DNA of 64,000 nucleotides from the IMG/VR virus record IMGVR_UViG_3300009502_000028, positions 1-64,000 of that record, one strand, 5' to 3'. This document shows positions 6,316 through 41,294 of this stretch, in pieces. Below the pieces are notes generated by a model, which worked only from the letters and a program-made list of their open reading frames with translations, was not told the origin of the DNA and searched no databases. Source of the stretch: a virus. A program made the position numbers and the translations under genes. The first letter of the stretch is position 1. Each line of letters opens with the position of its first letter.

Positions 6316-6344
6316 AAATTGGTGAAATCCACTAGTGATATAGA

Positions 6345-6378
6345 GTGATATAGTAACTGGTCTGTTCCAGCACTTCAC
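6345..6378 (-). repeat. Solitary CRISPR-type repeat at a gene end
   Basis: 34 of the 36 array-repeat bases, sense on the minus strand. It begins one base inside the TAG stop of the 190-aa gene, so the hairpin is the immediate 3' end of that coding region. Confidence 0.85.
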
Positions 6379-6950
6379 TAAACAATTGCGCCAAGGTTAA
6401 TATATTCCCGTTCTTTCCAATTGGGAATTCGACATAGGCTATACCCATATCGAAAGGTACTACCTTTAACCCATGTCAGGAAATCCGTTTTTATTCCATG
6501 TTGGAAAGAAATAATTTCAGTAAATTTAACCAAGTCACCGGCTTTCACTTTAGGCGCATTAGCTTTCCTGTTAATTCTATCCCAGCACCGCTTACGCCAA
6601 TTAATAGCATACTCGCTCGTTGTTGGGGTAAGCAAATTCAAAATTGTTTTCGGGCACTTGCTTTCGTATGGCCCCATATTTTCCGTCATGTCCTTATAGC
6701 CAAAAGTGTAGCCGTCTTTAGCATTAGGAACATGGCGAAGCAAACATACAATTGCGATAACATCTCTTTTGGCTGGCGATTCCGCCGTTGCCGGAATTTT
6801 AACTTCATACGCAATATAAGCGGTTGTCCACGTAGAAGAAAACCGGATGATATTACCGCTTCGGCCCTCGTCCGGCTTGTCATAGTTGAATGCTCGCTCG
6901 AAGAATTCTTTGGTTGTCTGTGAACCTTTATTTGTAAATGTCCAGCCCAT
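6378..6950 (-). CDS. Conserved mobile-element type protein, 190 aa
   Basis: Begins MGWTFTNKGSQTTKEFFERA and contains TAYIAYEVK and DVIAIVCLL. The opening and layout recall a family seen in phages and integrative elements, but the function is unknown to me. Its stop codon abuts a solitary CRISPR-type repeat. Confidence 0.7.
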   Translation of the reverse strand: MGWTFTNKGSQTTKEFFERAFNYDKPDEGRSGNIIRFSSTWTTAYIAYEVKIPATAESPAKRDVIAIVCLLRHVPNAKDGYTFGYKDMTENMGPYESKCPKTILNLLTPTTSEYAINWRKRCWDRINRKANAPKVKAGDLVKFTEIISFQHGIKTDFLTWVKGSTFRYGYSLCRIPNWKEREYINLGAIV

Positions 6951-8194: not shown

Positions 8195-8231
8195 ATTTCA
8201 AAGTATATGAACTGTTTTAACAAAGTCAACA

Positions 8232-8501: not shown

Positions 8502-8532
8502 ATTTCAAAGTATATGAATTGTTTTAACAAAG

Positions 8533-8859
8533 TCAACCCTCTTCTTCCCGGCGAACGAGTTCTTCCATCATTATTTTATCGGCCTCATCGCTCGTCCATC
8601 CATTATGACGAGCAAGACGCCATTGTGCATGCAAACGGGAAAAGGCATTATAACTTACATCCGGTAATTCCCAAAGATTAACAATTTCATAGCTTAGCTT
8701 AGCAAGCGATTCGGTTGAATCATGAGTCCCCGATATGTTTTCGTAAGCCTGTTCTATCGCCGCCAATTTGCTATTGCCCTCGGCCCAATCACCATCTTGT
8801 CCAACCGAACAAGTTGGATTGAAGGCCACCGTGATAAGGTTTTTATTGTTTTTAATCAT
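8533..8859 (-). CDS. Hypothetical protein, 108 aa
   Basis: Mostly helical, acidic at the end (MMEELVRREEEG). No family recognised. TTGACT-16-TATGAT ends six bases before the ATG, a clear leaderless arrangement. Confidence 0.7.
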   Translation of the reverse strand: MIKNNKNLITVAFNPTCSVGQDGDWAEGNSKLAAIEQAYENISGTHDSTESLAKLSYEIVNLWELPDVSYNAFSRLHAQWRLARHNGWTSDEADKIMMEELVRREEEG

Positions 8860-9173
8860 GTCGCCATCATACCGATACCATAAAAAAAGTCAACGAAATA
8901 TCAAAACTATTTCACGGCAAAGCGGGTTCCTGCCATTATGGCATACTAGAAGTCACCCCACGGGATCAATTCTAACCTTAGATTTAATAAAAACCGGAGC
9001 TTGACTTTCTGAAAAAATCGGTATAATGAAAATCGCCGGTGAAATAGGAAAAAATAGATTCGGTGAAATCGGTGAAATCTGAAAAATAATTGAAGAAAAT
9101 TGTTGACTTTCATCCCGAAATCAATAAATTGGTGAAATCATAGTTGAAAAACAATTAAACCAAAAACAAAATT

Positions 9174-9359
9174 ATGGGCAGACCGAGAAAGAATAAAAAC
9201 GTAGAAGTTAATGAATTCGGTGAAATCATCGGATCAATAGATGCCGAAAATGTCGGTATAATGGGATTATTTCAACCCCAAGAATGCGATATTATAGACG
9301 AAATGCAAACCAATGAAGCTTTGCGCCAATATCGCCTAGAAAAATTAGAAGAAGAATAA
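9174..9359 (+). CDS. AT-hook protein, 61 aa
   Basis: Starts with GRPRKNK, an AT-hook-like minor-groove binding motif, followed by an acidic tail. One of the few plus-strand genes in this part. TTGACT and TAAATT boxes lie about 50-70 bases upstream. It is followed by a solitary CRISPR-type repeat at 9372. Confidence 0.65.
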   Translation: MGRPRKNKNVEVNEFGEIIGSIDAENVGIMGLFQPQECDIIDEMQTNEALRQYRLEKLEEE

Positions 9360-9371
9360 TTTAGTAATTTA

Positions 9372-9414
9372 GTGATATAGAGATATAGAGACTGGTCTGT
9401 TCCAGCACGTCACT
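9372..9414 (-). repeat. Solitary CRISPR-type repeat, expanded
   Basis: Repeat with a short internal duplication (ATATAG twice), lying 12 bases after the stop of the 61-aa gene. CTGG/CCAG core intact. Confidence 0.8.
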
Positions 9415-9433
9415 AAATATATACATTTATTAG

Positions 9434-9461
9434 TTGACTCCTATCCGTAAATCCGTATAAT
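9434..9461 (+). promoter_or_regulatory. Promoter of the 90-aa gene
   Basis: TTGACT at 9434 and a perfect TATAAT at 9456 with 16 bp spacing. Confidence 0.75.
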
Positions 9462-9504
9462 CATATCACAGTAAAAAAACAATTAACCGATTAAAAACAA
9501 AAAT

Positions 9505-9777
9505 ATGCTTGACTTTATGCTTGACTTAAAGATGATGGTAGCCGGGATTAACAGTAATGGAGAACCAGACTTTTACTTTTGTAAATTAATCTGTACCGAA
9601 GATGATTACGATAATGGGTATCATTATAAATTTGCTATGAATAAAGCGGAACAAGCGGATTTTGAACCCAAATTGGCATTTGATCAAGATGATGCTGCCG
9701 GTAAAGCAATCGTAGATCATTTTAGTTGGGAAAGTGCTGATACCTTTACCGTACAGTCTGAGTGTTTTAGTGACTGA
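9505..9777 (+). CDS. Acidic hypothetical protein, 90 aa
   Basis: Contains FYFCKLICTEDDYDNGYHY, then an acidic C-terminal half. Similar small acidic proteins seem frequent in large phages, but I know no function. A good promoter lies at 9434-9461. The stop codon runs into a degenerate CRISPR-type repeat. Confidence 0.7.
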   Translation: MLDFMLDLKMMVAGINSNGEPDFYFCKLICTEDDYDNGYHYKFAMNKAEQADFEPKLAFDQDDAAGKAIVDHFSWESADTFTVQSECFSD

Positions 9778-9795
9778 TATATCCCAGCACGTCAC
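9769..9795 (-). repeat. Degenerate solitary CRISPR-type repeat
   Basis: Shortened copy overlapping the TGA stop of the 90-aa gene. Confidence 0.6.
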
Positions 9796-9853
9796 TACAT
9801 ATATGCCGGAGAAGGGTGATAAAAAATTATTACTCCTTCTCCGGTAGTGTTTT

Positions 9854-9880
9854 AGTGACTGGTCTGTTCCAGTAATTCAC
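9854..9880 (-). repeat. Solitary CRISPR-type repeat, short form
   Basis: GTGACTGGTCTGTTCCAG core with symmetrical GTGA/TCAC ends; the ATATAG part is lost. Confidence 0.75.
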
Positions 9881-9932
9881 TAGAAATTTCAAAAAAATGC
9901 AATTCGTTTTAATTCTAATCTTAGAGTTGATA

Positions 9933-9958
9933 GTGACTGGTCTGTTCCAGTAATTCAC
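9933..9958 (-). repeat. Solitary CRISPR-type repeat, short form
   Basis: Same short form as at 9854, next to a palindrome copy (9909-9930). Confidence 0.75.
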
Positions 9959-9969
9959 TAAATATATAA

Positions 9970-9998
9970 AAAATCCCCCGTCACTTGACAGGGGATTT
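9970..9998 (-). terminator. Rho-independent terminator
   Basis: Stem AAATCCCC/GGGGATTT with a T-rich tail on the minus strand, after the two-gene unit ending at 10019. Confidence 0.75.
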
Positions 9999-10000
9999 GT

Positions 10001-10025
10001 AGATTAGATTAGATTAGATTAGATT
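10001..10025. repeat. AGATT x5 microsatellite
   Basis: Five tandem AGATT units. The stop codon of the gene ending at 10019 lies inside it. Confidence 0.9.
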
Positions 10026-10342
10026 CCTTTGATTCGATTTCGGATAGCCAGAGAAGGAATATCCCCGGCTACCCTAAGAACATCGGTAACGAATTCCTCA
10101 TAATGCCGGTGATCAATTCTATTATCTCTTTCCATTGCCAACACTTCAATACGCCTACCCTCTTTATAGTCATTAAGAACTTTAAGACGAGCAATCATAT
10201 AAGGGTTTTCTTTGGTCGTATCCGTGAGCGTAGAACCCGGCTCCTTGCCTTTAACAGGAACATTAGGCAATCGTTGCTCAGTCTTGTTAAATTGAGCTAC
10301 ACGGTTCGTATATGTTTCAGGGATAGGCTTATTCGATTTCAT
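10019..10342 (-). CDS. Hypothetical protein, 107 aa
   Basis: Charged, helical, not recognised. It starts two bases after the stop of the upstream 216-aa gene, so the two are probably co-transcribed and ended by the terminator at 9970. Confidence 0.7.
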   Translation of the reverse strand: MKSNKPIPETYTNRVAQFNKTEQRLPNVPVKGKEPGSTLTDTTKENPYMIARLKVLNDYKEGRRIEVLAMERDNRIDHRHYEEFVTDVLRVAGDIPSLAIRNRIKGI

Positions 10343-10344
10343 AT

Positions 10345-10995
10345 TTACACAACTTGAAACAATTGAGTTTCCTTCCCCTTAGCATTACGCCTCTCGGTAC
10401 GGGTTCGCTTTACCGTCCCAGCCGCTTCACAGTCCCTCAAAAACACTGCCGCCACAGAATAATCAGTATTGTTTAGTTTACATAGCTCCGTTGTACTAAA
10501 CTCCCCCGACGGAATACTTAGCAACGGACGATCATTCTTGGGCCGTCCCCTCGACTTAGTAACATTAGACGGCACTTCATTTGTATCTACATTATCGTTT
10601 TCAATCATATTATTAGTTTCTTCGATTTCTTCAATTTCTATTAGTTCTTTTGTAAGCTGTTCAAATTTCCATCGTGCCCCGCCAGCTTGATAAGCGGGAT
10701 ACGACCAGGCTGATATTCCAAACTTAGACGCCCCAGGATATTCCTCAAAATCCTCAGCATACGTAATTGATTTGCCACCAGGTAACGAATACGTTCCTGC
10801 CTTCTTTATCGAAGGCGCAATAACTTCAAATCCAAATGTTTCCCCTTCTTTATCTCCAATCGCATGAATACGTTCATATATGTATACAGCTTTACCTTTA
10901 GGGGTAAAACCTTTTTTAATTTGCCGGAAAAATTGCATCCCGGTGCCATTGGCATTAGTTTTGAATTCAACTTCAATTTGTTTCATCTTGCTCAT
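10345..10995 (-). CDS. Putative DNA-binding protein with AT-hook, 216 aa
   Basis: Three parts are visible: a beta-rich N-terminal domain (1-110), an acidic linker, and KSRGRPKNDRP (about 147-157), an AT-hook. The C-terminal part (FSTTELCKLNNTDYSVAAVF) looks like a winged helix. The two AT-hook proteins at 9174 and 13402 share the GRPR/GRPK core. Promoter TTGACT-16-TATAAT upstream. Confidence 0.65.
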   Translation of the reverse strand: MSKMKQIEVEFKTNANGTGMQFFRQIKKGFTPKGKAVYIYERIHAIGDKEGETFGFEVIAPSIKKAGTYSLPGGKSITYAEDFEEYPGASKFGISAWSYPAYQAGGARWKFEQLTKELIEIEEIEETNNMIENDNVDTNEVPSNVTKSRGRPKNDRPLLSIPSGEFSTTELCKLNNTDYSVAAVFLRDCEAAGTVKRTRTERRNAKGKETQLFQVV

Positions 10996-11031
10996 TATAC
11001 CGATACACCATCAAAAGTCAACTATTTTCAA

Positions 11032-11054
11032 TGTCGGTTTGTTCCAGCACTTCA
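11032..11054 (-). repeat. Partial solitary CRISPR-type repeat
   Basis: Half repeat (GTTCCAGCACTTCA) just upstream of the promoter of the 216-aa gene. Confidence 0.6.
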
Positions 11055-11090
11055 TTATCGCATACAGTAGCACATATTCCCAGTGTTTTA

Positions 11091-11116
11091 GTGACTGGTC
11101 TGTTCCAGCACTTCAC
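11091..11116 (-). repeat. Solitary CRISPR-type repeat
   Basis: Short form. The flank TGTCTATCATATATAGCA is repeated after the next copy at 11220, so repeat and flank were duplicated together. Confidence 0.8.
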
Positions 11117-11219
11117 TGTCTATCATATATAGCACTTATCCCCGAAACATGCAAGTTATTTTAACTCTAACCTTAGATTTATTCACAAGGGATAAATTTA
11201 AAAAAGATAACAACATAAA

Positions 11220-11253
11220 GTGATATAGTAACTGGTCTGTTCCAGCACTTCAC
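11220..11253 (-). repeat. Solitary CRISPR-type repeat
   Basis: Near-complete copy identical to the array repeat over the central 34 bases, with the same flank as the 11091 copy. Confidence 0.85.
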
Positions 11254-11326
11254 TGTCTATCATATATAGCACATATTCCAGAACATGCAACCACCGACTT
11301 AAATTATACTGCTTTAGTTGGAATTG

Positions 11327-11539
11327 TCAAGCCTTTGCTTCGTTTTCTGGTTGAACCATTTTAAATGATAATGCTGGCTTGCTCTCGATTTCTTCCATTT
11401 CCGCATCATCAATCATATCCCCCGTTTCATCTTCAAATTCAACCACGTCCCCGGCAACAAAGTCTTGTCCAACCCATTGTTTTTTTTCTGTATCCCATTG
11501 TTGAACTACAAACCCATAGGTAATTTTGTTAATAATCAT
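11327..11539 (-). CDS. Acidic hypothetical protein, 70 aa
   Basis: Acidic protein (DETGDMIDDAEMEEIE). Not recognised. Its start is preceded by TTGACA and TATACT-like boxes. Confidence 0.6.
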   Translation of the reverse strand: MIINKITYGFVVQQWDTEKKQWVGQDFVAGDVVEFEDETGDMIDDAEMEEIESKPALSFKMVQPENEAKA

Positions 11540-11619
11540 ATTAGGATAATATACTACATTTCTGTTTTGTCAAGACTTAGTTCCCCGCCCTGTTATAGAC
11601 GGGAAACTAATAGATTTAA

Positions 11620-11925
11620 TTAATCCGGTTTTCCATCCAAATAAATTTCCGTGTTCATTGCATGCAATAATGTTAGTTGAATTTCTTCACCCGTTGTATC
11701 CGTGAGAAATAAAGAATTCCCAATCGCTTTAACTTCTTGATTATCTTGTCGATAGAATTCCACCAGAAACACTTTCCCGTGTTCATCCGTAGAGTCTAAG
11801 GACAAAAACATTTTTGGCTCATTATCCTCATCTTGCAATGCTGGGAATGTAAGAAAATAATCCGCCCAAATAACCGCCGAACAATCTTCCAATAACCGAT
11901 ATGCTTGATTCAATGTAATTTTCAT
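11620..11925 (-). CDS. Hypothetical protein, 101 aa
   Basis: Not recognised; mixed alpha/beta appearance. It starts 13 bases after the stop of the 103-aa gene, so the genes at 12455, 12250 and 11925 probably form one minus-strand unit. Confidence 0.7.
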   Translation of the reverse strand: MKITLNQAYRLLEDCSAVIWADYFLTFPALQDEDNEPKMFLSLDSTDEHGKVFLVEFYRQDNQEVKAIGNSLFLTDTTGEEIQLTLLHAMNTEIYLDGKPD

Positions 11926-11938
11926 GTTTTTATTATTC

Positions 11939-12250
11939 TTATACCGTCATATTACTGATTTCTGTCTCTTTTGCAAGTGTTTCTTTCACCCATTCATACG
12001 ATTTATCGTCCCCATCAATTTCAATTCCAAGCGCATTCTCATAACAGGAATCTACCATTGCCGCCACCATTTCATCACACTGCGAATAAACCAATCTAAA
12101 GAATTGATCATCCGGCAAATTCATTTGCAAAAGAGAAAAACAATTCCCGTACGTTTGCCCTTGATCATCATACGCACGGTATCCGTAAGTCTGATTTTGG
12201 GTGTTCCAATTAGTAAATATTGTTCGCTGTAGGGTAACTCTATTATTCAT
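11939..12250 (-). CDS. Hypothetical protein, 103 aa
   Basis: Start MNNRVTLQRTIF chosen because the upstream gene stops at 12267 and the longer frame would overlap it heavily. Second in a three-gene unit. Acidic C-terminal half, no family recognised. Confidence 0.65.
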   Translation of the reverse strand: MNNRVTLQRTIFTNWNTQNQTYGYRAYDDQGQTYGNCFSLLQMNLPDDQFFRLVYSQCDEMVAAMVDSCYENALGIEIDGDDKSYEWVKETLAKETEISNMTV

Positions 12251-12266
12251 GTTCATAGTGTTAACA

Positions 12267-12455
12267 TTAATCTTCAAGCAATTCGATAAGACAATCACCA
12301 TAGGAATACAAGTTTCCCCCTGGCTCAAGTGTTTGATCAGTATCTTCATTATAGTATCCCAGTAAGGTACCGCCAGAAGAAAGCAATTCCTTACCATTAG
12401 CAGTCTCTTTAACATATCCCCGGCACTTTGCACCGGGACCAAGTATTGTTCTCAT
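12267..12455 (-). CDS. Conserved small phage/plasmid-type protein, 62 aa
   Basis: ILGPGAKCRGYVKE and GGTLLGYYNEDTDQT form two similar beta-hairpin units. This GPG..lG/G.llGYY...D.T pattern recurs in small proteins of phages and plasmids as far as I recall. Function unknown. TTGACT-TATTCT promoter upstream. Confidence 0.7.
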   Translation of the reverse strand: MRTILGPGAKCRGYVKETANGKELLSSGGTLLGYYNEDTDQTLEPGGNLYSYGDCLIELLED

Positions 12456-12506
12456 AAATAAAAGAATACCGTTAACTTGATTAAAGTCAACGGTATTTAG
12501 TGTTTT

Positions 12507-13316
12507 TTATGCCGCTATTTTATCGGCAAAAACTCGTTTAACTTTCCAGCCTTCTGCACTATTCTGCTTTTTAACTTTCTTGTCACCAAAATATTTGGCT
12601 TTATATCCACCTTTGCCATGCGTTTTAATTTTCTGCCATGCTTTACTAGCCTTTGTTCCCGCCGGTTGGATGCCATGTATGACAATGGCAAAGTCCTTGT
12701 CATAATTCCAGACATGCGAATCATCATGGTCAATTTGAAGCTTCCATTTCCGGCGTGCCTCTCGCTCAGATAACACAACCCGCACCGACCGCAACCCAAA
12801 CATTTCAATCAAATTGTCATGCGTCCCACCCCTTGAGGCTACAATCCTAAAATTAGCAGGAATTGCCTCTAATCGCTTTACCCAATAAGGCAATGCCTTA
12901 GTATAACCATAGAAAATTAGATTAGAATGATTTTGAGCAACCATAAGCCAAGCATCGAAATATGCTTGCGAAAAGAAATCGCCGCTTTGATGAAATCTAA
13001 CCAATTTGATTTTTTTCTTCCCTTCCAAAGATTGTTCAATCAAATTTGCCATACCGATTGTTGTTTTAGCGTTTTTAATAAGCTCAAAATTATTCCACCG
13101 ACTTCTCCGTATGTTAGGAAATAAACACTCTGCCGTTGTGGCATAACAACGGAATTGCGTATGTGGACCATCTTTAATCTTGCCGGTAACTTTATCCGAA
13201 CAAGACCGGCACTCGTTCGCAAAAGGACATGTATATCCTGCCGGAAGGGAAAGAATTGCAGTGTCTTTTGATAACTTTGCATTGCCGTGAGTGAAACTTA
13301 ATTTTGTTTTATTCAT
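12507..13316 (-). CDS. Gp88-like phage protein, 269 aa
   Basis: Contains SLPAGYTCPFANECRSCSD (residues 23-41), DGPHTQFRCYATT and VRFHQSGDFFSQAYFDAW, which match the Gp88 family of phage proteins in order and spacing. The cysteines may bind a metal. The function of the family is unknown. The DNA lies between a short-leader promoter and the AT-hook gene. Confidence 0.8.
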   Translation of the reverse strand: MNKTKLSFTHGNAKLSKDTAILSLPAGYTCPFANECRSCSDKVTGKIKDGPHTQFRCYATTAECLFPNIRRSRWNNFELIKNAKTTIGMANLIEQSLEGKKKIKLVRFHQSGDFFSQAYFDAWLMVAQNHSNLIFYGYTKALPYWVKRLEAIPANFRIVASRGGTHDNLIEMFGLRSVRVVLSEREARRKWKLQIDHDDSHVWNYDKDFAIVIHGIQPAGTKASKAWQKIKTHGKGGYKAKYFGDKKVKKQNSAEGWKVKRVFADKIAA

Positions 13317-13401
13317 GGGTATAGTGTATGAATATAATATAAAAAGTCAAGAAAAGACGGAAAGAATATTTTACTTTTCTCGCCGTCTTTATTGTAAACC
13401 A

Positions 13402-13854
13402 TTATACCGTCACCAGATTCTCCACCGCATCAGTCACCGGAACCGCATCAGTCACCGCAACCGTATCAGTCACCGGAACCGCAACCATATCCACCGGAGG
13501 GGCCACCGGAAGCTTGCTGTTCATCTTACGAGTCTTTGCAGCCTTCTTTGCCGCCTTAGACCGTTGCAATGCCGCAACCGCAATAAACACAGTCAATGGC
13601 TTTCCCACCCCGCCCGTAGGAATTCGCTCCCCACTATCCACACACCAATTTTCCGCAATCCACCTATTCTTATGCTGATATAAACTCAATGCACAAACAT
13701 CAGGGTTCAATGCCTTAACATCATTCATTGTCCACGTATTTGTCTCCGGCTTCTTAATTTCAAACCTGGGCCGCCCACGCCCACGCTTAACTTCTGTCGC
13801 CGTTACCGTTTCCGTTTCCGTCACAACAACTACTTCCGTATTTTGTTTTTTCAT
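13402..13854 (-). CDS. AT-hook protein with repetitive C-terminus, 150 aa
   Basis: GRGRPRF at residues 25-31 is a classical AT-hook. The last 30 residues repeat a short VPVTD/VAVTD motif encoded by near-identical GGTGACTGATGCGG units (13425-13490), a small expandable tract. Probably a DNA-binding protein; the rest is not recognised. Promoter TTGACA-17-TATAGT upstream. Confidence 0.7.
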   Translation of the reverse strand: MKKQNTEVVVVTETETVTATEVKRGRGRPRFEIKKPETNTWTMNDVKALNPDVCALSLYQHKNRWIAENWCVDSGERIPTGGVGKPLTVFIAVAALQRSKAAKKAAKTRKMNSKLPVAPPVDMVAVPVTDTVAVTDAVPVTDAVENLVTV

Positions 13855-13950
13855 TTTTTATTGTTTTATTTGTTTAATCGCTTAACTTTACTAACTATAC
13901 CGATATTTTTTATTTTGTCAATGATTACTTGTTTCGTCTTACGTCTTATT

Positions 13951-13976
13951 GTGTCTGGTCTGTTCCAGCACTTCAC
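13951..13976 (-). repeat. Solitary CRISPR-type repeat
   Basis: Short form in the 386-bp gap 13855-14240, which also holds the repeat at 14032, a palindrome at 14124 and a small promoter-terminator unit at 14164-14230, but no gene. Confidence 0.8.
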
Positions 13977-14031
13977 TAAATAAATTATACCGGTTTATTC
14001 AAAATTATCAACTACAAAGTTTCATTTTTTA

Positions 14032-14064
14032 GTGATATAGTGTCTGGTCTGTTCCAGCACTTCA
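14032..14064 (-). repeat. Solitary CRISPR-type repeat
   Basis: Near-complete copy, followed on the plus strand by ATATTCCAGAACATGCAA, the same flank as after the 11220 copy. Confidence 0.85.
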
Positions 14065-14163
14065 CTATTGCATATTCCAGAACATGCAAAAGTCAAACGA
14101 AATCATATCCCCCCCCCACAGTTGATCAACTCTAACCTTAGAATTGTTGCCGGTGAATAAATA

Positions 14164-15898: not shown

Positions 15899-16030
15899 AT
15901 TCCTTACATCTTACTACTCCCTCGTAAAAAAGCAAGCTATTCTTTCCGCAATCTTTCCAATCCAAATATCCCGCTCTCTCCCCTCCCTCCCTCTCTCCCT
16001 CCCAGTACGTACAACTATACCCATATCCCG

Positions 16031-16162
16031 ATCAACTCTAACCTTAGATTTATTCCTCTCATTAACTCTAACCTTAGAGTTATCCCGTCAAGTGGTATTT
16101 TCACCGATTAATTCTAACCTTAGATTTATTAAAAAAAAAAATAACTCTAACCTTAGAGTTAT
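16031..16162. repeat. Cluster of four palindrome copies
   Basis: Four copies of the AACTCTAACCTTAGAGTT-type palindrome at 16031, 16061, 16108 and 16141 lead into the tandem repeats at 16151. This is the densest cluster in the window. Confidence 0.8.
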
Positions 16163-16393
16163 TAATTATTTTATAAAAATAAATTGGTGAAATACCCATT
16201 CTTAGAGTTAATATTTATTTTATAAAAATAAATTGGTGAAATACCCATTCTTAGAGTTAATATTTATTTTATAAAAATAAATTGGTGAAATACCATTTTT
16301 AGAATTAATAATTATTTTTATAAAATAAATTGGTGAAATACCATTCTTAGAGTTAATATTTATTTTTATAAAAATAAATTGGTGAAATACCCG
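16151..16393. repeat. Iteron-like tandem repeats, five units of ~49 bp
   Basis: Units begin CTTAGAGTTAATATTTATT and end AATTGGTGAAATACCCATT; spacing is 48-50 bp. Each unit contains half of the dispersed palindrome and an AT-only inverted repeat. The AT-rich non-coding setting next to the CRISPR locus would suit a replication origin or a regulator-binding array. No gene lies in 15899-17045 apart from possible micro-ORFs. Confidence 0.8.
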
Positions 16394-16758
16394 TTTTAAA
16401 TGAAACTTTTTGTCGCCAGCCTATCCTTTTATAATTATTTATAAAATCATTAATATAGGATATATCGGCAATATATTATGTTATATAAACCACTGCCGTT
16501 ATAAGCTTTATAAACTATTATCGCCATAATTCTTTATACGTATTTATGGATATATTTTTGTAAATTATTGGTGAAATACATTAATATAGTATAAAAAAGG
16601 CGTGTATATACGTATATACACCCTATAATCTACTAATATTGTAGATATTTAGTTTTTATAAAATAGCATATAGCGATGGGGGAAGGGTATAGAATATAAA
16701 AAGGAATAAGGGTATATTTTATTTTTTGGTGATATGGGGGGGGAGGGGGGGGATATAG

Positions 16759-16794
16759 GGTGGTATAGTAACTGATATGTTCCAGCACTTCACC
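16759..16794 (-). repeat. Solitary CRISPR-type repeat, first downstream of cas12
   Basis: 36 bp, four differences from the array repeat by eye. Followed on the plus strand by TTTAAGAATACGTAGATATG, which also follows the 16960 copy. A run of G (16737-16752) precedes it. Confidence 0.85.
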
Positions 16795-16844
16795 TTTAAG
16801 AATACGTAGATATGTTTTTATATTTTGAATATGTAGATATATCT

Positions 16845-16934
16845 TTATGTAGGTAAGGATATTTTTTTTACTATATAGATGAGAGGGGACAGGGTTTCGG
16901 TATCATATTGTTTCATATCTGTTTTTGTATTCAT
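16845..16934 (-). CDS. Possible micro-ORF, 29 aa
   Basis: ATG to TAA frame (MNTKTDMKQYDTETLS...) starting 26 bases after the repeat at 16960 on the same strand. The ATG region ACCAATATGAATG-like sequence is shared with the micro-ORF at 17105. No promoter lies between repeat and ATG. Weak evidence. Confidence 0.25.
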   Translation of the reverse strand: MNTKTDMKQYDTETLSPLIYIVKKISLPT

Positions 16935-16959
16935 ATTGGTATGTTACCGATATTATATC

Positions 16960-16995
16960 GGTGATATAGTAACTGGTCTGTTCCAGCACTTCACC
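16960..16995 (-). repeat. Solitary CRISPR repeat, perfect 36-bp copy
   Basis: Identical over all 36 bases to the array repeat (reverse orientation in the window). The perfect match implies recent copying or selection. Confidence 0.9.
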
Positions 16996-17045
16996 TTTAA
17001 GAATACGTAGATATGTTTTTATATATATATAATATAAAAAACGGG

Positions 17046-17105
17046 TTAATTTTGACAAGGTTTTTTATGGGCGGTTAACCGTCCACATACCAATGATTCA
17101 TTCAT
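17046..17105 (-). CDS. Possible leaderless micro-ORF, 19 aa
   Basis: TTGACT-16-TATCAT ends six bases before an ATG that opens MNESLVCGRLTAHKKPCQN and a TAA. The promoter-to-ATG geometry equals that of many genes here, so the unit may be real. Its transcript would run into the perfect repeat at 16960. Confidence 0.35.
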   Translation of the reverse strand: MNESLVCGRLTAHKKPCQN

Positions 17106-17183
17106 ATTGGTATGATACCGATATTTTTGAAAAAGTCAAGCAGAAAGCATTTCTTTTGTTTCTGCGAGAGTTCACAGTTCGCC

Positions 17184-17218
17184 GGTGATATAATAACTGA
17201 TATGTTACAACATTTGGC
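17184..17218 (-). repeat. Degenerate CRISPR-type repeat at cas12 3' end
   Basis: Diverged copy (GGTGATATAATAACTGATATG and further changes) three bases after the cas12 stop codon. It lacks the CTGG/CCAG pairing. Confidence 0.65.
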
Positions 17219-17220
17219 GA

Positions 17221-20200
17221 TTATGATAGTTTCCAATTTTTGTGAAGTTTTTCACATACACTCCATGGGTAGTAGGTATTAGTATTATCTAATTTATAAT
17301 ATTTGGCTGTATTTTCTTTTGTGGCGGTGATTTTTTTATTTTTAATGACATCGGTTGCAGTTAAGTCAGGTAGTAAGGCAACACCGGCACCGGTGTTTGT
17401 GGTATGGATTTGGTATACGGTAGCGGAATAACCATGTAGAAGAGTTTCTGCTCCACGGAGTCGTTTTGCCGCTCCACTTTGGTCATTTTTTGTGGTATCG
17501 AACAATTCATATGTATTAACGTACTTTCCATTTTCTATTTCGGTTAAACTTCTACAATACAGATTAGTATGATGAGTAAGTCCTCGTAGAGCGATCATTC
17601 GAGAGGCGTTTACATCGGCGTGCAATTTTTTATTAGGTAGCCATAGATTTGCACCATCACGACAACCATAAATACCGGAATCGGCATCATGGCGACTGGT
17701 TCCATTTTCATCGACATATTGGATTAATATACCCATATAACTAAACGCATCTTCGGCAGATTTTTTCATTTGTCCTCTGGGCCAGATATTAAACATACGA
17801 TTACTTTGTTTAGTATTTTTAGATGATCCCATTATATCAAGATTCTCCATTGCTACGATACCGATTCCTAATTCGTAACAGCGGTGAGCGATTTGGGAGA
17901 ATAATTTTTTAATGAAATAATCTTTAACATTATCCCGCCACTCTAAAATACCTTTACAGAAGTTTTCTTCTCTTAGAGTACACCGTTGTTTTTCTCCTTC
18001 GGCATATACATGATCTTTAGGAAGCATTTTAATTCCATCACCGGAATCATTGAATGTTTTTTTAAGATTATAATAAGCATCAATCAATTCAATTAATGGG
18101 GGAGCCGACAACCAATTTTTCTTCTCGGTGAGATGATTATTAGAATCTCTATTTCCCCGAATACCATTCATTGTTTGAGTAATAACATACATTAAATTAC
18201 TGATAACCCAATATTCTTTCTTTTTCCCTTCAACCGGGAGTTTTCCTTTAATGTCTCGTATTAACTTTCCCTCTTGTTTTGCTTTTTTAATATCTTTAAT
18301 GAATTGATCGATAGTAATTCGTTGTTCGGATGGGAGTAACTCCATGAGTTGATCAAAACTTTTAATATCATCTTTACTTAGCTTTAATTCACCGCTCTCT
18401 TGTAAGTATCGACGGGAGGCACGAATGATATTTATAAGTTGGTATATATTCCCTTTGAGTTGAATATACTGTTCATTAAAAACCGTAGAAACAATTTCAT
18501 TTCCCGTTTCTTTGATTTGAATACCTTCTTCTGTTCCCACCACGTTATAATAACTAACCGTATATGGATTACTATATCCAAGGTCTATTCCCGCATATTT
18601 CAAAGTTCTACCGGCAAAACGTTTACTTAGGTCTTTATCCAAAACACAGCTTTGAACATTACGTTTAGGCGTGCGAACTTCATCCCATGCCTTTTGGAGC
18701 TCCGATCTAATTTTGAATAATTCCTTGGAATTGAATTCATTATTGGCGTGATATTCAACAAAAATATTAGTTGGAAGAATAACATAATATTCACCATTAG
18801 ACGGGTTGCGTCGAAAATATAATGTTTTTACGACAGCAAACACCGGTATTTTACCGGCTCGGGCATATTCAAAAATATAACACTTTTCAAGTGATGCCTC
18901 ATGTATTTCTTTGTCCGTGAGTTCACGATTTTCTGCTTTGGCTAATGCAAGCAACTCCTTCTCACTACGAGGTAATCTTGTTGTAAGCCCATTATAATAA
19001 CATTTAGTTTCATGTTTACGTCCATACGCAGCTACATAAGAACGTTCTTCTTTATTGGGAAGTTCGATAGTAATGGTTAATTGACGATTGGCGGTATCAT
19101 TATCTATACGGACTAATTTAGCCGCATTGCGATCCATTGAGAAACCGATTGGAATGGGAGATTCTTTTGAAATTAAAGTAAGGGAAGCTCCTTTACGATA
19201 ACGACCATGTTTATCAAATAATTCAACATATTTTTCAAATCTTGGATCAGACAAAAGGCATTTATCAGATTCCCATAAACTTCTTCGTCGGAACAATTCT
19301 TCACTAATTTTTGGATTGAAAGAATAAGCAACTTGATTTTTTTTATTGGTGTGTTTATTATTTGCCAGCCAAAATCCTTCTAGCAATCCGGTGTTATTAG
19401 CAATTGCATTGGGTCGCCAGCATTCCTTAAAAAACGATAAAAATTTATAATTCAAATAAGAAGTATCCGTGTATCCTTCTCCTAGTTCTTTAGTGTATTG
19501 TAACAAGCCCATCAAATCGGTTATAACTTCGCTCCCATAATCACCGGATAATTCCGAAGACAACTCCGTTAATCGGTTATCTATCTCAGCATAATTTGCT
19601 TGAGCCGCAATATCACATGCGTTCCATCCTTTAACTCGTGCATGGAATCCACTGAATACATTTTGGTGATAGTTATTTTTAAGATGTAACTGAGAGTTGT
19701 GCGATAGAGGGAGCGGAAAAATGTCGGCAAGTCGCCATTTGGCAAACTGAAGAATCTCTTCAGAATGTTTAATTCTGTTTGCTGCTTTTCTAAGTTCATT
19801 TTTATGTTTTTTTACATCACCGGTTGACATTTTTGTCAAATCCGCTTCTTCAAGCTTAGCATACTCTTCCTGTTTTCGACGAATATCTTCTTTGACTTTC
19901 GCTATACTTTTAAATGTAGCCCGCACCATTGGATTGGAAATTGAAATTGGCTGACCTTCCCAATTAATTATTTTATAATAAGCCTCTTGTTCTTCGGGGG
20001 TTGCTTTGCTACCATCGACCACCATGTTGTTGGTTTTGTCATATAGCTTTAGTCCAGATAATTTATATGTCGCAGTCTGAATTTCTCTAGCAGCCTCTTG
20101 GTGGTCAGAGATGAGAGTATCGAGTTCTTGATGTTGATCTGGATTCAACAATATCCGCAAAATACCCGCCCGTGTTACGGAGTCTTTTTCTACTTTTGCC

Positions 20201-20232
20201 TTTTTGGTTTTTTTGATTTTTTCTTTTGTCAT
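17221..20232 (-). CDS. Cas12-type CRISPR effector, 1003 aa, subtype unassigned
   Basis: RNA-guided nuclease with a C-terminal split RuvC domain: motif I LKYAGIDLGYSNP around residue 548, motif II GIVAMENLD around 794, motif III HADVNASRMIALRGL around 874, so D, E and D are all present. No CxxC zinc ribbon is seen between motifs II and III. The N-terminus is lysine-rich and about 540 residues of unrecognised helical sequence precede RuvC. At ~1,000 aa it is longer than TnpB and CasPhi. Its place next to an array supports a type V effector, but I cannot assign a subtype. It is divergent from cas3, with the promoter TTGCTT-17-TAGGTT ending six bases before ATG. No adaptation genes are nearby. 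Confidence 0.85.
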   Translation of the reverse strand: MTKEKIKKTKKAKVEKDSVTRAGILRILLNPDQHQELDTLISDHQEAAREIQTATYKLSGLKLYDKTNNMVVDGSKATPEEQEAYYKIINWEGQPISISNPMVRATFKSIAKVKEDIRRKQEEYAKLEEADLTKMSTGDVKKHKNELRKAANRIKHSEEILQFAKWRLADIFPLPLSHNSQLHLKNNYHQNVFSGFHARVKGWNACDIAAQANYAEIDNRLTELSSELSGDYGSEVITDLMGLLQYTKELGEGYTDTSYLNYKFLSFFKECWRPNAIANNTGLLEGFWLANNKHTNKKNQVAYSFNPKISEELFRRRSLWESDKCLLSDPRFEKYVELFDKHGRYRKGASLTLISKESPIPIGFSMDRNAAKLVRIDNDTANRQLTITIELPNKEERSYVAAYGRKHETKCYYNGLTTRLPRSEKELLALAKAENRELTDKEIHEASLEKCYIFEYARAGKIPVFAVVKTLYFRRNPSNGEYYVILPTNIFVEYHANNEFNSKELFKIRSELQKAWDEVRTPKRNVQSCVLDKDLSKRFAGRTLKYAGIDLGYSNPYTVSYYNVVGTEEGIQIKETGNEIVSTVFNEQYIQLKGNIYQLINIIRASRRYLQESGELKLSKDDIKSFDQLMELLPSEQRITIDQFIKDIKKAKQEGKLIRDIKGKLPVEGKKKEYWVISNLMYVITQTMNGIRGNRDSNNHLTEKKNWLSAPPLIELIDAYYNLKKTFNDSGDGIKMLPKDHVYAEGEKQRCTLREENFCKGILEWRDNVKDYFIKKLFSQIAHRCYELGIGIVAMENLDIMGSSKNTKQSNRMFNIWPRGQMKKSAEDAFSYMGILIQYVDENGTSRHDADSGIYGCRDGANLWLPNKKLHADVNASRMIALRGLTHHTNLYCRSLTEIENGKYVNTYELFDTTKNDQSGAAKRLRGAETLLHGYSATVYQIHTTNTGAGVALLPDLTATDVIKNKKITATKENTAKYYKLDNTNTYYPWSVCEKLHKNWKLS

Positions 20233-20348
20233 GGTGTTAACCTAACACTATTGTCGAAAAAAAGCAAGATTTATTTTAGGGAAAATCGATTGATCCAAAA
20301 AACCGAATAAAATATTGACTTTGCGGAGGAAAAAAGTTAAGCTAAAAA
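20233..20348. promoter_or_regulatory. Divergent cas12/cas3 promoter region
   Basis: Minus: TTGCTT, 17 bp, TAGGTT, six bases, ATG of cas12. Plus: TTGACT (about 20314), 17 bp, TAAGCT, five A, ATG of cas3. Both transcripts would be leaderless or nearly so. A GGAGGA sequence lies between the cas3 promoter boxes and cannot serve as its ribosome site if the start is as predicted. Confidence 0.65.
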
Positions 20349-22625
20349 ATGCTGACAGAAAATTTTGCCCATTCCGGTTATCAGGTGAACGCATCGAACC
20401 GTACAGTTGCTCCGCAATTATATCGGGATCACATTCATGCGGTACGTAATAACGCCTTGCGGGAGTTTGATCGTAGATTTCGTCATTATAAGAATAGAAA
20501 AATGGTAAATTTCTATCGGAAAATACTTGAAACTGCTACAGAATGGCATGATTTGGGAAAATTGATGCCGGAATGTCAAGCAATTCTTTCACAATCAAGC
20601 GAAAGCGATACGTCAATGCTTAACCATGTTGATGCAGGAGTATCGCATTGTATTAAGGAATATGAACGAACCAATGAATTATATTATCTTTTAGCAGCGT
20701 GGCTGATATTGGCTCATCATATTGGTTATATAGATTGGGAAGAATTAACTAAAATTACTCTTGTTAATCCGTCACAAATGTTATCGCCGACCAAAATACA
20801 TCTTAAAGAAAAATGGCGGGATTATCGTATAAGAGATTATGTAGATGCTAATCTTATTATATGGGAACAACTACATAAAGAAGATATAATTATTACGGAT
20901 TCAATGCCGGATGTTGGGTATAACATTAATATTAAAAATGTTGATTGGCATGATATATCAGAGTGTTTTTCCTGCATGGTGTCTGCTGATCACGCCGACA
21001 CCAATCAATTTCGTAATGATGGATATGTGCTACCTGAGCCATATAAACTTCGAGAGGATGAGCGTATTGAAAATTTTGATAAATATAATGATGGATTAAG
21101 TAAAATAAATCCCGGTAAAAGAATTAAAGATCGGAAGCTTCTTTATGCGTCGGCGGATAGGGAATCTATCTCATCTTGGATAAAAAACGATGGTACGGTA
21201 GGTTCGGGTAAAACCAATGCTAATCATAAAAAGGCATTGAAAATGGCAAAAAAATATGGGTGTGAACGAATATTTATTGTGGCCCCATATATTAATGTTA
21301 TCAATCAACTTGTTGGTAAAGCAAAAGAATCTCTTTTGTTACCGGGAGAGTATCAGGTAGGGGTTATTAACGAGCATCATTCTATGGTTCAGTTTACAGA
21401 TTGGCGGTTGCGAAAATATAATAATAGATTAGATGGTCCATTAACGTATACTACTTGCGTGCAATTTTTCGAGGCATTGACTACTTATCATCCCGCAGCG
21501 ATAGGGAAACTCATTCATTTTACGGATTCGGTCATTGTTCTTGATGAGTATCATCAAGCGATGCCATATGAATTATGGTCACATGCGTTATTTTTATTAG
21601 AAAAATTAGTAAACAATTATAATGTTCACGTTATTTTTAGTTCCGGGACTCCCATTGATTTTTGGGATTTATATCATAAAAATATAGTAGTGGATAATAT
21701 GCTTACACATACGGAATGGAAGCATTTTCAGGCGAGAGAAAATACACGGGTTAAAAAATCGCATCTGGGAGCTATTGGATTAGGTAAATTATGTCGGCAT
21801 ATAACTAATGGATATAAAAACAAACATTCTACTTTAATAGTATGTAATACCACTAATAATGCGAAGGTTTTATTTAAATTATTGAATAGCGGAAATGGGA
21901 ATGTCTATCATTTGAGTAGTCGAGTGACACCGGAGTTTAGAGAAAAAAGATTGGAATTAATAAAACAAAAAATAAAAGATGAATTACCGGTCATATTAAT
22001 TGCCACCTCAATGGTAGAATGTGGTATTGATATATCATTTGAGCGGTGTTATCGAGAAGAAACCAGTTTAGATTCACTTCAACAATGCACCGGAAGATGT
22101 AATAGGAATAATGAATTTAAAATCGGAAAAGTATATGTTTTTTGTTTTTCTGAATCATTAATCCGAAAGGGAACAATAACTATTAATCCTACGACACAAA
22201 GAGCGATTAATGTATTTCGTAAATTAGAAAAAAATGAATGGATTCCGGCAATGGGAACATCGGCAGCGAGAGACACGTTAACAACTAGCAATTGGAATAT
22301 GATTTCTCGGATTGAAGATAACTTTTCCAAGGGAAATCTCCGCACCGTAGGTAATTTAATGCGATTGATAAAAACTCAAAAATTTACAGTTGTAATCGAT
22401 CCGACTGTCATTGAAAGAATTAAATCTAAAGATATTACCCTCGGATATGCGGATATTAGCAGAAATTCGGTAACGGTATTTGGAAATGTACACCAACGAT
22501 TACTTAATGCCGGAATTATTGAACCGCTAGAGAAAATTCGGGACGATGCCGATGACCCAATTACAATGTGGGCATTGAATAACTATCATATTAATTATGA
22601 TATTGAGCTGGGACTTTTATGTTAA
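20349..22625 (+). CDS. cas3: Cas3-type HD nuclease-helicase, 758 aa
   Basis: HD domain: WHDLGK near residue 65, NHVDAGVSH near 96 and LAHHIGY near 122. Superfamily 2 helicase: Walker A-type TVGSGKT near 284, DEYHQA near 398, FSSGTP near 431 and motif VI QQCTGRCNR near 577. This is the complete order of a Cas3, which in type I systems unwinds and degrades DNA marked by Cascade. No Cascade gene is present; the neighbours are a Cas12-type effector and an array. It may therefore assist the type V effector, act with host Cascade, or have another role. Length is normal for Cas3. Confidence 0.9.
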   Translation: MLTENFAHSGYQVNASNRTVAPQLYRDHIHAVRNNALREFDRRFRHYKNRKMVNFYRKILETATEWHDLGKLMPECQAILSQSSESDTSMLNHVDAGVSHCIKEYERTNELYYLLAAWLILAHHIGYIDWEELTKITLVNPSQMLSPTKIHLKEKWRDYRIRDYVDANLIIWEQLHKEDIIITDSMPDVGYNINIKNVDWHDISECFSCMVSADHADTNQFRNDGYVLPEPYKLREDERIENFDKYNDGLSKINPGKRIKDRKLLYASADRESISSWIKNDGTVGSGKTNANHKKALKMAKKYGCERIFIVAPYINVINQLVGKAKESLLLPGEYQVGVINEHHSMVQFTDWRLRKYNNRLDGPLTYTTCVQFFEALTTYHPAAIGKLIHFTDSVIVLDEYHQAMPYELWSHALFLLEKLVNNYNVHVIFSSGTPIDFWDLYHKNIVVDNMLTHTEWKHFQARENTRVKKSHLGAIGLGKLCRHITNGYKNKHSTLIVCNTTNNAKVLFKLLNSGNGNVYHLSSRVTPEFREKRLELIKQKIKDELPVILIATSMVECGIDISFERCYREETSLDSLQQCTGRCNRNNEFKIGKVYVFCFSESLIRKGTITINPTTQRAINVFRKLEKNEWIPAMGTSAARDTLTTSNWNMISRIEDNFSKGNLRTVGNLMRLIKTQKFTVVIDPTVIERIKSKDITLGYADISRNSVTVFGNVHQRLLNAGIIEPLEKIRDDADDPITMWALNNYHINYDIELGLLC

Positions 22626-22671
22626 TTTGCGAGCGGTTAGGTGGCGTCAAATATGCCGTAGCCGCTCGCAA
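22624..22671 (+). terminator. Hairpin after cas3
   Basis: TTGCGAGCGG/CCGCTCGCAA inverted repeat immediately after the cas3 stop. The half CCGCTCGCAA recurs in the array leader (22750) and in its copy near 39120. Confidence 0.6.
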
Positions 22672-22689
22672 CTTGTAACTCGCTGATAA

Positions 22690-22804
22690 TATGGAACTTA
22701 CGAAATATGATATTTGATGTTGACAAACCGGGGATAATAGAATACACTGCCGCTCGCAAATTGATACACAGTTCTTTGATAATACGTTACTTACGAGGGA
22801 TACA
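22690..22804 (+). promoter_or_regulatory. CRISPR leader with promoter
   Basis: TTGACA at 22720, 17 bp, TACACT at 22743, reading into the first repeat at 22805. The variant repeat at the far end of the array also supports a leader on this side. The block 22690-22840 is duplicated at 39039-39189. Confidence 0.75.
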
Positions 22805-23784
22805 GGTGAAGTGCTGGAACAGACCAGTTACTATATCACCGTTCGAGTTGGCGAAATATAGTGATAACTTGCATTTGGTGAAGTGCTGGAACAGACCAGT
22901 TACTATATCACCACCGCTCGCATTAGCCTTCTGGGAATGGAGTAAAGAAGGTGAAGTGCTGGAACAGACCAGTTACTATATCACCCACGATTGATTTGCC
23001 CGAACCAACTGGAAAATATGGGTGAAGTGCTGGAACAGACCAGTTACTATATCACCTATCATAGTAATGGATATTCCAAGTGCTGAACTCTACGGTGAAG
23101 TGCTGGAACAGACCAGTTACTATATCACCAGAGCCAAGTCTCTGCTCATAGAGCAATAAAAAAAGAGGTGAAGTGCTGGAACAGACCAGTTACTATATCA
23201 CCAGAGCCAAGTCTCTGCTCATAGAGCAATAAAAAAAGAGGTGAAGTGCTGGAACAGACCAGTTACTATATCACCCGCAGCATATTGGCTTTCATCAAAA
23301 GCAAACTCTAGGTGAAGTGCTGGAACAGACCAGTTACTATATCACCATGAGTAATACATATCCTTCCTATGGTATCCTTTCAAGGTGAAGTGCTGGAACA
23401 GACCAGTTACTATATCACCATCAGTAGAGAATCCGGTTTATCATCTTCTATCTGGGTGAAGTGCTGGAACAGACCAGTTACTATATCACCTATCCGAATT
23501 GTTGCACCAGAGGCAATGCATATTCAGGTGAAGTGCTGGAACAGACCAGTTACTATATCACCACCGCTATATAGGAAAAGCCCCTAACTCAGTCGCCTAG
23601 GTGAAGTGCTGGAACAGACCAGTTACTATATCACCGCCGTTATATGTATATGCTATAAAGAAACATCGGTAATGGTGAAGTGCTGGAACAGACCAGTTAC
23701 TATATCACCACCTCGTGGTAGCGGTCCTTGCCGAGCAGGTGCTTCGCCGGTGAAGTGCTGGAACAGACCAGTCACTATATCACC
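22805..23784 (+). CRISPR. CRISPR array, 14 repeats and 13 spacers
   Basis: The 36-bp repeat starts GGTGAAGTGCTGGAACAG and ends ACCAGTTACTATATCACC. It folds on itself (GGTGA/TCACC, AGT/ACT, CTGG/CCAG, loop AACAGA). Repeat starts: 22805, 22877, 22950, 23021, 23094, 23167, 23240, 23311, 23384, 23455, 23527, 23600, 23674, 23749. Spacers are 35-39 bp. Spacers 5 (23130-23166) and 6 (23203-23239) are identical. The last repeat carries GTCACT instead of GTTACT. No cas1, cas2 or cas4 is in the window. Confidence 0.98.
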
Positions 23785-24161: not shown

Positions 24162-25358
24162 ATGAATAGACAATATACATATAAATTTAGAATCTATCCT
24201 ACAAAGGAACAAGAGATATTATTGTCTAAACATTTCGGAAGTATTCGTTATGTGTATAATCTATTTTTAGATAAACGAACTAAGTTTTACTTAAATGCAA
24301 AAGAAAAACAACTTGCTAAAAAATCATTAAATTATAATGAAATGTCAGCAGAGTTAACAAAACTCAAATCAAACACGGAAACCGAATGGTTAAATGAGTG
24401 TAATTCTCAATCACTCCAACATTCTTTAAAACATCTAGAAACTGCTTTTAATCGTTTCTTTAAGAAAAAATCCAAATATCCAAGATTTAAAAATAGAAGA
24501 AGTAAACAATCATTTAGATTACCACAATTTGTCTCTGTAGAAGATGGAAGAATATATTTTCCCAAATTTAAAGAAGGAATAAAAATCGATCAACATCGTA
24601 AAATTGAAGGATCAATTGAAAATGCTACTATTAGTCGTAATGTAGCAGGACAATATTTTGCGTGTATTGGTGTTACTAAAAACATTGAAATCAAATCAGA
24701 ATTAAATAATGCTGTTGGGATTGATTTGGGAATTAAATCCTTAGTAGTATGCTCAGACGGAATTAGATTTAAAAACATAAAACCGCTCAAACAATTAGAA
24801 AAATTAGTTAGAATTAGACAGAAATCAGTTAGTAGGACTGGGAAAAAATCCATCGGGAGAATTAAAGCAAGGTTAAAACTCGGAAAACTCCACGTTAAAA
24901 TTGCCAATATTCGTAGTAATCATTTACATCAAATATCTCACAAGTTAGTGAGCGAAAACCAAACTCTTATACTTGAAGATTTGTCCGTAAAAAATATGAT
25001 GGGAGATCATAGATATGCTAAATCCATTGGAGATTGTTCTTGGTCAGAATTAGTAAGACAGATATGTTATAAAAGTGAATGGTATGGAAGAAAAGTCATT
25101 AAAATTGATAGATACTTCCCATCCAGTAAAACTTGTAGTAACTGTGGATATATTAAAGATGATTTAACACTTAAAGATAGAGAGTGGAATTGTCCAAAAT
25201 GTAACTACAAACACGATAGAGATTTAAATGCATCTCTGAATATCCTAAAACAAGGATTAAATTTAACAGTCGGAACGACTGGGTTAGCCGTTTGTCCTGA
25301 TGTAAGACCTATTGGAAACAATGGGCAATTGGTTGGAACGGAAACCCACTCTCTTTAG
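24162..25358 (+). CDS. tnpB: TnpB (IS605-type RNA-guided nuclease), 398 aa
   Basis: RuvC motifs GIDLGIKS (near 187), LILEDLSVKN (near 270) and RDLNASLNI (near 355) with a zinc ribbon CSNCGY...CPKCNY between the last two. Length is typical of TnpB. Such proteins are guided by an RNA made from the element's right end. No Y1 transposase gene lies nearby, so the copy is not autonomous. The right-end hairpin (25342-25367) overlaps the 3' end of the gene. Confidence 0.92.
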   Translation: MNRQYTYKFRIYPTKEQEILLSKHFGSIRYVYNLFLDKRTKFYLNAKEKQLAKKSLNYNEMSAELTKLKSNTETEWLNECNSQSLQHSLKHLETAFNRFFKKKSKYPRFKNRRSKQSFRLPQFVSVEDGRIYFPKFKEGIKIDQHRKIEGSIENATISRNVAGQYFACIGVTKNIEIKSELNNAVGIDLGIKSLVVCSDGIRFKNIKPLKQLEKLVRIRQKSVSRTGKKSIGRIKARLKLGKLHVKIANIRSNHLHQISHKLVSENQTLILEDLSVKNMMGDHRYAKSIGDCSWSELVRQICYKSEWYGRKVIKIDRYFPSSKTCSNCGYIKDDLTLKDREWNCPKCNYKHDRDLNASLNILKQGLNLTVGTTGLAVCPDVRPIGNNGQLVGTETHSL

Positions 25359-38217: not shown

Positions 38218-38472
38218 TCAATCGTTTTCCGGTTGAACTATGAGAGCATCATATTCAGCCGCTAGGTCAACCGGGTTCCAGCAATCATTCATACCATACA
38301 AGGTGATATAGTAGCTGGTCTGTTCCAGCACTTCACCACGCAATTCGTCTGCATTCAGTCACAGCGTTTCCTCGACCATCGTTTCTCCACAGATGGCGTC
38401 CAATGCGTCATCCACCGATGTTTCCCTATGCCAGCACTGCATTAGGATTTCTTGCAACTCATCTTTAGTCAT
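38218..38472 (-). pseudogene. Broken paralogue containing a CRISPR-type repeat
   Basis: MTKDELQEILMQCWHRETSV continues to a TGA at 38359 (37 aa). After the stop the same frame stays open for 46 codons, through the repeat at 38302 (translated GEVLEQTSYYIT), to a TGA at 38218. The intact relative is at 37512. The start overlaps the stop of the upstream gene (ATGA). Confidence 0.6.
38302..38337 (-). repeat. Solitary CRISPR-type repeat inside a broken gene
   Basis: One difference from the array repeat by eye (AGCTACT for AGTTACT). Confidence 0.88.
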
Positions 38473-39038: not shown

Positions 39039-39074
39039 GGTGATATAGTATCTGATCTGTTCCAGCACTTCACC
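39039..39074 (-). repeat. CRISPR repeat after a leader copy
   Basis: Two differences from the array repeat by eye. It is preceded, on the minus strand, by the copied leader at 39075-39189. Confidence 0.92.
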
Positions 39075-41256: not shown

Positions 41257-41291
41257 GGTGATGTAGTGGCTGGTCTGTTCCGGCATTTTAC
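41257..41291 (-). repeat. CRISPR-type repeat in a 5' leader
   Basis: Several changes but the CTGG/CCAG core pairs as CCGG-CCAG partly. It lies downstream of TTGACA-17-TAGCAT and 10 bases upstream of the start codon of the 112-aa gene. Confidence 0.75.
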
Positions 41292-41294
41292 TTC

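Follow-up and report, generated by a model that had tools for sequence, protein, structure and literature searches.

A divergent Cas12-like effector, a complete Cas3 and CRISPR arrays of one repeat in a jumbo phage

We analysed a 64,000-nucleotide stretch of viral DNA (positions 1 to 64,000 of IMG/VR record IMGVR_UViG_3300009502_000028; hereafter the window) in which a gene for a large Cas12-like effector stands back to back with a complete cas3 that is followed by a clustered regularly interspaced short palindromic repeats (CRISPR) array. That this is a real CRISPR locus is practically certain. Our preferred reading, to which we give a probability of about 0.4, is that the phage owns a small type V-like CRISPR system with host-supplied spacer acquisition and with Cas3 as its degrading partner. 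Cas3 is the executor of type I systems, where it is recruited by Cascade. If a Cas12 recruits it here, the executor would be swappable between classes, and a Cas12–Cas3 pair would offer a compact means of making large deletions.

A Cas12-like effector encoded opposite a type I-C-like Cas3

An initial annotation of the window, made from its letters, had described a 1003-residue RuvC protein divergent from a full HD-helicase Cas3, with a 14-repeat array after cas3. Both open reading frames (ORFs) and the array are there as described, the two genes being 116 bp apart (coordinates in Table 1). The effector is a single large protein with RuvC motifs I–III and the catalytic D, E, D residues expected of type V; D550, E796 and D873 correspond to the RuvC acidic residues that are invariant in an alignment with 13 TnpBs from the same phage. 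C857 is the sole cysteine between E796 and D873, which agrees with the initial remark that no zinc ribbon is visible. The same annotation could name no subtype, and after searching neither can we: matches to Pfam, NCBIfam and PADLOC profiles stay at the RuvC/TnpB level (TIGR01766, 6.9e-7) and include no defined Cas12 subtype, and there was no match in PHROGs.

Sequence searches of the PDB (phmmer) were more specific. The best matches were Cas12-2/CasJ19 (8wru) and Cas12X at 3e-7, across residues 745–905; the effector also matched 8xca, titled Cas12o1, and the Cas12X/Cas12X2 entries 8zqb, 8zqc and 9ix6, the last at 0.0015. These known proteins are of comparable length (~735–930 residues), and the likeness covers ~160 residues of RuvC-II/III with the RuvC residues kept. 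Only the RuvC part of the phage effector can be aligned with Cas12o1/CasJ19 and Cas12X; its N-terminal part is ~540 residues long, and no sequence match covers the N-terminal half. The top PDB matches of a predicted structure were again Cas12X2 and Cas12-2/Cas12o1. The mean predicted local distance difference test score of this model was 47.5, too weak for claims at the level of the fold, which we dropped. We consider it highly probable that the protein is a Cas12 guided by CRISPR RNA (crRNA), with predicted cleavage activity. An array lies 2.6 kb from the effector gene, past cas3, and repeats also occur 3' of the effector gene; it is likely that the effector uses the crRNAs of these arrays.

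The Cas3 has both an HD nuclease and a helicase, as type I systems require. It scores above the NCBIfam cut-off for cas3_core (TIGR01587; 103.8 bits against 102.45), and its best profile match is PADLOC Cas3c (1.2e-88, residues 35–756). Aligned against Cas3s of type I-C, the protein has the HD residues and the GSGKT, DEYH and GRCNRN motifs, bearing out the initial description of a complete protein. Identity to the Cas3s of type I-C operons is 25–28%. A promoter-like site, TTGACT-17-TAAGCT (consensus match only), lies directly ahead of the cas3 ATG.

A jumbo phage genome in which no Cascade or adaptation genes were found

The window belongs to an 84-kb virus record, and its DNA recurs in IMGVR_UViG_3300025162_000016 (368,758 bp) with a single mismatch over 63,931 bases; a third record matches at 100% identity across 14.3 kb. 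The phage setting is strengthened by the larger record, whose terminal 7,102 bp are a copy of its starting 7,102 bp. Because of these identical ends, the phage genome is probably complete at ~361.7 kb; IMG/VR gave the end type without a completeness estimate. Record positions below are those of the 368,758-bp record (321149 − x, where x is the window position). The phage carries genes for a DNA ligase, a polymerase-like protein, Thy1 and tRNAs. It also has 15 TnpB genes (for example window 24162–25358), several of them with a degenerate zinc ribbon and some of IS607 type.

The absence of Cas1, Cas2, Cas4, Cas5, Cas7 and Cas8, initially claimed for the window, extends to this record. Scans for the Cas1, Cas7 and Cas5d families gave no match there while the positive controls were detected, and tblastn with type I-C Cas1, Cas2, Cas4, Cas5, Cas7 and Cas8c queries gave no significant match and no remnants. 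Unlike type I-C systems, the phage thus has no recognisable Cascade genes (Cas5c, Cas7, Cas8c) or adaptation genes (Cas1, Cas2, Cas4). A PADLOC scan of 242 ORFs, which omits most genes of 20–140 kb and ORFs at stretch borders, gave TnpB-type Cas12 and generic nuclease entries as the only cas-family matches among those listed (the best 25 of 49 and 25 of 26 families). Although the phage lacks Cascade, its Cas3 looks maintained, because both of the cas genes recovered keep their active sites.

Neither protein has close relatives in the collections searched. Whether the query was the whole effector, its RuvC region or a profile including CasJ19/Cas12X fragments, the phage itself was the only match in IMG/VR viral contigs; no effector relatives were found in GTDB genomes or in phage and plasmid collections. 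Cas3 likewise found only the phage itself in viral contigs, and its relatives elsewhere are distant type I-C Cas3s. These scans used exact or degenerate peptides, which distant relatives can escape. The neighbouring DUF932 gene was also found in no viral contig but those of the phage itself, and hence there is no related phage for a comparison of synteny.

Four arrays with a common repeat and leader

The initial account of the array was right for the window and incomplete for the phage, as it missed three further arrays and 19 solitary repeats. In the window array, 13 of the 14 repeats are identical and the terminal one is degenerate (1 change); spacers 5 and 6 are the same sequence. The further arrays have the same repeat and lie at record positions 9141–9612, 331573–332110 and 333064–333910, all three with degenerate leader-distal repeats. 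Counted over all four arrays, there are 33 distinct full-length spacers, mostly of 34–41 nt. This diversity and the degenerate leader-distal repeats fit polarised acquisition.

The leader homology of the window array begins inside cas3, in its final 14 nt (GACTTTTATGTTAA), and this stretch is also present in the other three leaders. Since the leader overlaps the end of cas3 and the stretch recurs at the other arrays, it looks as though cas3, leader and array were inherited as a single unit. On the simplest reading of the 14-nt stretch, short as it is, the other three arrays would descend from the cas3-adjacent one.

No spacer had a target in the phage's own genome or a credible one among 50,697 phage records (best E = 2), and for two spacers searched in IMG/VR the sole matches were the arrays they come from. 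A protospacer adjacent motif could therefore not be derived. The exact 22-nt core of the repeat was not found in GTDB genomes. We did not call a trans-activating CRISPR RNA, since anti-repeats 3' of the effector gene would need the + strand and the clear promoter in that flank is oriented to transcribe the repeat-sense strand.

Solitary repeats

Solitary copies of the array repeat number 19, all on the same strand, with 15 inside the window and three of them 3' of the effector gene. A chance origin was rejected: nearly all copies differ at no more than 9 positions, and a search allowing 12 mismatches brought in just two more (with 10 and 11). The array-identical copy beside the effector gene has a phage-type promoter, TTGACTTTTTCAAAAATATCGGTATCAT, upstream on the same strand. 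A promoter-like site (at most 2 mismatches, at most 150 nt upstream) precedes 6/19 solitary repeats, against 7.5% of random 160-nt windows, promoters being enriched between genes anyway. Two record sites, 229885 and 282075, consist of a leader and a single repeat without spacers, each shortly ahead of a possible gene start; possible explanations are empty arrays or promoters put to new use. Copies in the cluster at window 6344–14066 are mostly of the form AGTG...CACT, and in six the outer pair (1–36) has changed from G-C to A-U. Such changes suggest that the hairpin is retained; a shuffle control was modest (9/500 for cells changed on both sides), and the other measures were not exceeded.

Solitary repeat units directly downstream of a promoter are described as acting as RNA anti-CRISPRs (Racr; PMC10651486), and are recognised by a single repeat that mimics CRISPR repeats in sequence and structure. 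The 19 copies here do so, some lie directly behind promoter-like sites and the hairpin seems mostly kept. In contrast to Racr, all 19 occur in one genome, together with cas genes and with full arrays built from the same repeat.

A phage promoter-like consensus, TTGAC(A/T)-N-ATCGGTATAaT, has 18 matches in the record, mostly in the solitary-repeat region (304–319 kb). A dispersed element of up to ~300 bp occurs at record positions 6806–7104, 330239–330454, 350397–350540, 361526–361822 and 237042–237371; at 330454 and 350540, though not at 7104, its right end adjoins a full CRISPR repeat. The element may have moved repeats. At window 16152–16392, five 49-bp tandem copies (TTTATAAAAATAAATTGGTGAAATACC core) lie within 1.3 kb of AT-rich non-coding DNA (15900–17220) where the GC skew changes sign, and about 16 copies of CTAAGGTTAGAGTT motifs are found at record 304–320 kb along with the 49-bp copies. 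The AT-rich stretch is a possible replication origin.

A model for the locus and its alternatives

In the preferred reading, the leader promoter would transcribe each array, and the Cas12-like protein would bind the mature crRNAs and locate matching sequences, whether in rival phages, plasmids or the host. Its RuvC site would open or nick the matched DNA. Cas3, in a phage without Cascade, would load onto the opened strand and shred the target, whilst host Cas1–Cas2 would insert new spacers at the leader end. That Cas3 is a working partner of the effector is a tentative proposal. The full form of the idea is a shade more doubtful, namely a natural type V/type I hybrid in which the effector finds the target with phage crRNAs, Cas3 degrades it processively without Cascade and the host provides adaptation. 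The evidence for the preferred reading is that the effector gene and cas3 are the only cas genes recovered in the record and share one intergenic region, that an array-identical repeat also lies just 3' of the effector gene, and that the effector's best PDB sequence matches are CRISPR effectors solved with crRNA. Several points weigh against it. Type I-C-like Cas3s act with a Cas8c-containing Cascade, and spacers of mostly 34–41 nt look long for type V and more like those of type I. The poor effector model means that structural kinship would mainly amount to the ~160 residues of sequence. A search for other genomes with the same gene pair, as the initial annotation had proposed, found no second one in the collections covered, where the effector had no relative and Cas3 only distant I-C ones, so conservation gives the pairing no support. 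Furthermore, an earlier description of huge phages with a type V effector next to type I-C parts treats these as two separate systems (PMC7162821).

The last of these observations favours two modules here as well: Cas3 and the arrays would be the phage's share of an I-C-like system whose Cascade and Cas1–Cas2 come from the host, and the effector a separate class 2 enzyme that may or may not read the same arrays. The array begins right behind cas3, the Cas3 is nearest to those of I-C operons and the spacer length also points this way. We rate this arrangement as the main rival, somewhat less likely than the preferred reading. Against it, no GTDB genome has the exact repeat core, so there is no known host system with this repeat, the phage has no remnant of Cascade, and the repeat recurs beside the effector gene. 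It is less likely again that effector and arrays suffice, with Cas3 a leftover or in another job such as degradation of host DNA. Characterised type V effectors need no helicase, and the intact RuvC residues suggest that this one can cut. A full-length Cas3 with intact motifs, located at the array, is however unlike decay. Finally, the 1003-residue protein could be a TnpB-like nuclease of unusually large size that uses an RNA of its own, leaving Cas3 and the arrays as the sole CRISPR part. The 15 TnpB genes of the phage and the TnpB-type profile match would suit this, but the best full-sequence matches are CRISPR Cas12 effectors, no TnpB chain appears among the PDB matches up to E = 1, a profile built from the phage's own TnpBs does not match the protein, and it combines the lack of a zinc ribbon with its ~540-residue N-terminal part. 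We regard it as very improbable.

The initial annotation had offered a hybrid in which Cas3 degrades targets found by the effector, or the use of host Cascade or adaptation proteins. Its anatomy holds, with a divergent effector, a complete Cas3 and no Cascade or adaptation genes; that Cas3 degrades effector-found targets is a proposal. As the Cas3 is of the type I-C kind, the phage may instead use host Cascade or host adaptation proteins. The effector matched no known subtype whose relatives regularly carry an unrelated helicase, and we found no genomes placing this cas3 in a separate type I locus.

Relation to known systems

The closest parallel in setting is the huge phages with CasPhi (Cas12j) and a type I-C variant, which like this jumbo phage lack Cas1 and Cas2 and combine I-C components with a type V effector in a single genome (PMC7162821). 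There, the I-C variant is a second system in which a helicase replaces Cas3; in the present phage the effector is encoded in the same locus as a true Cas3, and no gene of Cascade was found. The titles of the Cas12o1/CasJ19 and Cas12X structures mention crRNA and no Cas3 partner. The 2025 classification describes many type V variants and some class 2 accessory proteins, and its section 9 names no Cas3 partner of Cas12 (PMC12669027). A pairing of type V with Cas3 was not found in the literature examined, the coverage of which was partial, so that an earlier report is possible. Each part thus has precedents, and within the sequences and literature searched we found none for the combination.

If Cas3 proves to depend on the effector, the locus would be more than a variant of a known system. 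Even if the two enzymes work separately, the phage has a deeply divergent Cas12, and its genome contains four arrays, 19 solitary repeats and units of a leader plus one repeat. The locus also makes the spread of arrays within one phage, and host-dependent spacer acquisition, testable.

Other features of the window

Features of the locus and the solitary repeats in the window are collected in Table 1.

Table 1. Positions of the locus components and solitary repeats in the window
Feature	Position	Strand	Remarks
Cas12-like effector, 1003 aa	17221..20232	−	RuvC D550/E796/D873 kept; zinc ribbon absent
Intergenic region between effector gene and cas3, 116 bp	20233..20348	.	Divergent genes; promoter-like sites for both (consensus match only)
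Cas3, 758 aa, HD nuclease and SF2 (superfamily 2) helicase, type I-C-like	20349..22625	+	Profiles, alignment
Array leader, ~200 bp, common to all four arrays	22612..22804	+	Contains promoter-like TTGACA-17-TACACT
CRISPR array, 14 repeats of 36 nt, 13 spacers of 35–39 nt	22805..23784	+	Repeat GGTGAAGTGCTGGAACAGACCAGTTACTATATCACC
Degenerate solitary repeat, 9 changes	17184..17219	−	Directly past effector stop codon
Solitary repeat, array-identical	16960..16995	−	3' of effector gene; 28–29-nt flank common with copy 16759..16794
Solitary repeat, 3 changes	16759..16794	−	Same 28–29-nt flank as 16960..16995
Two solitary repeats	13942–13977, 14031–14066	−	TTGATA-16-TATAAT ends 6 nt ahead of first
Two solitary repeats	11082–11117, 11219–11254	−	TTGACA-16-TATAAT just upstream of second
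Four solitary repeats (9379, 9761, 9846, 9924)	9379..9959	−	Mostly AGTG...CACT form
Solitary repeat, AGTG...CACT form	6344..6379	−	
Solitary repeat, 1 change	38302..38337	−	
Solitary repeat with array-type leader before it, no spacer	39039..39074	−	Ahead of ORF; record 282075
Solitary repeat, 7 changes	41257..41292	−	Immediately past TTGACA-17-TAGCAT

Poly-A and poly-C runs at window 1–96 have no match in the 368,758-bp record, where matching starts from 70, and are probably an assembly artefact. The window also carries genes for a nicotinamide/nicotinate phosphoribosyltransferase and an ADP-ribosylglycohydrolase (49810–50988 and 54210–55058), with a possible role in counter-defence related to nicotinamide adenine dinucleotide.

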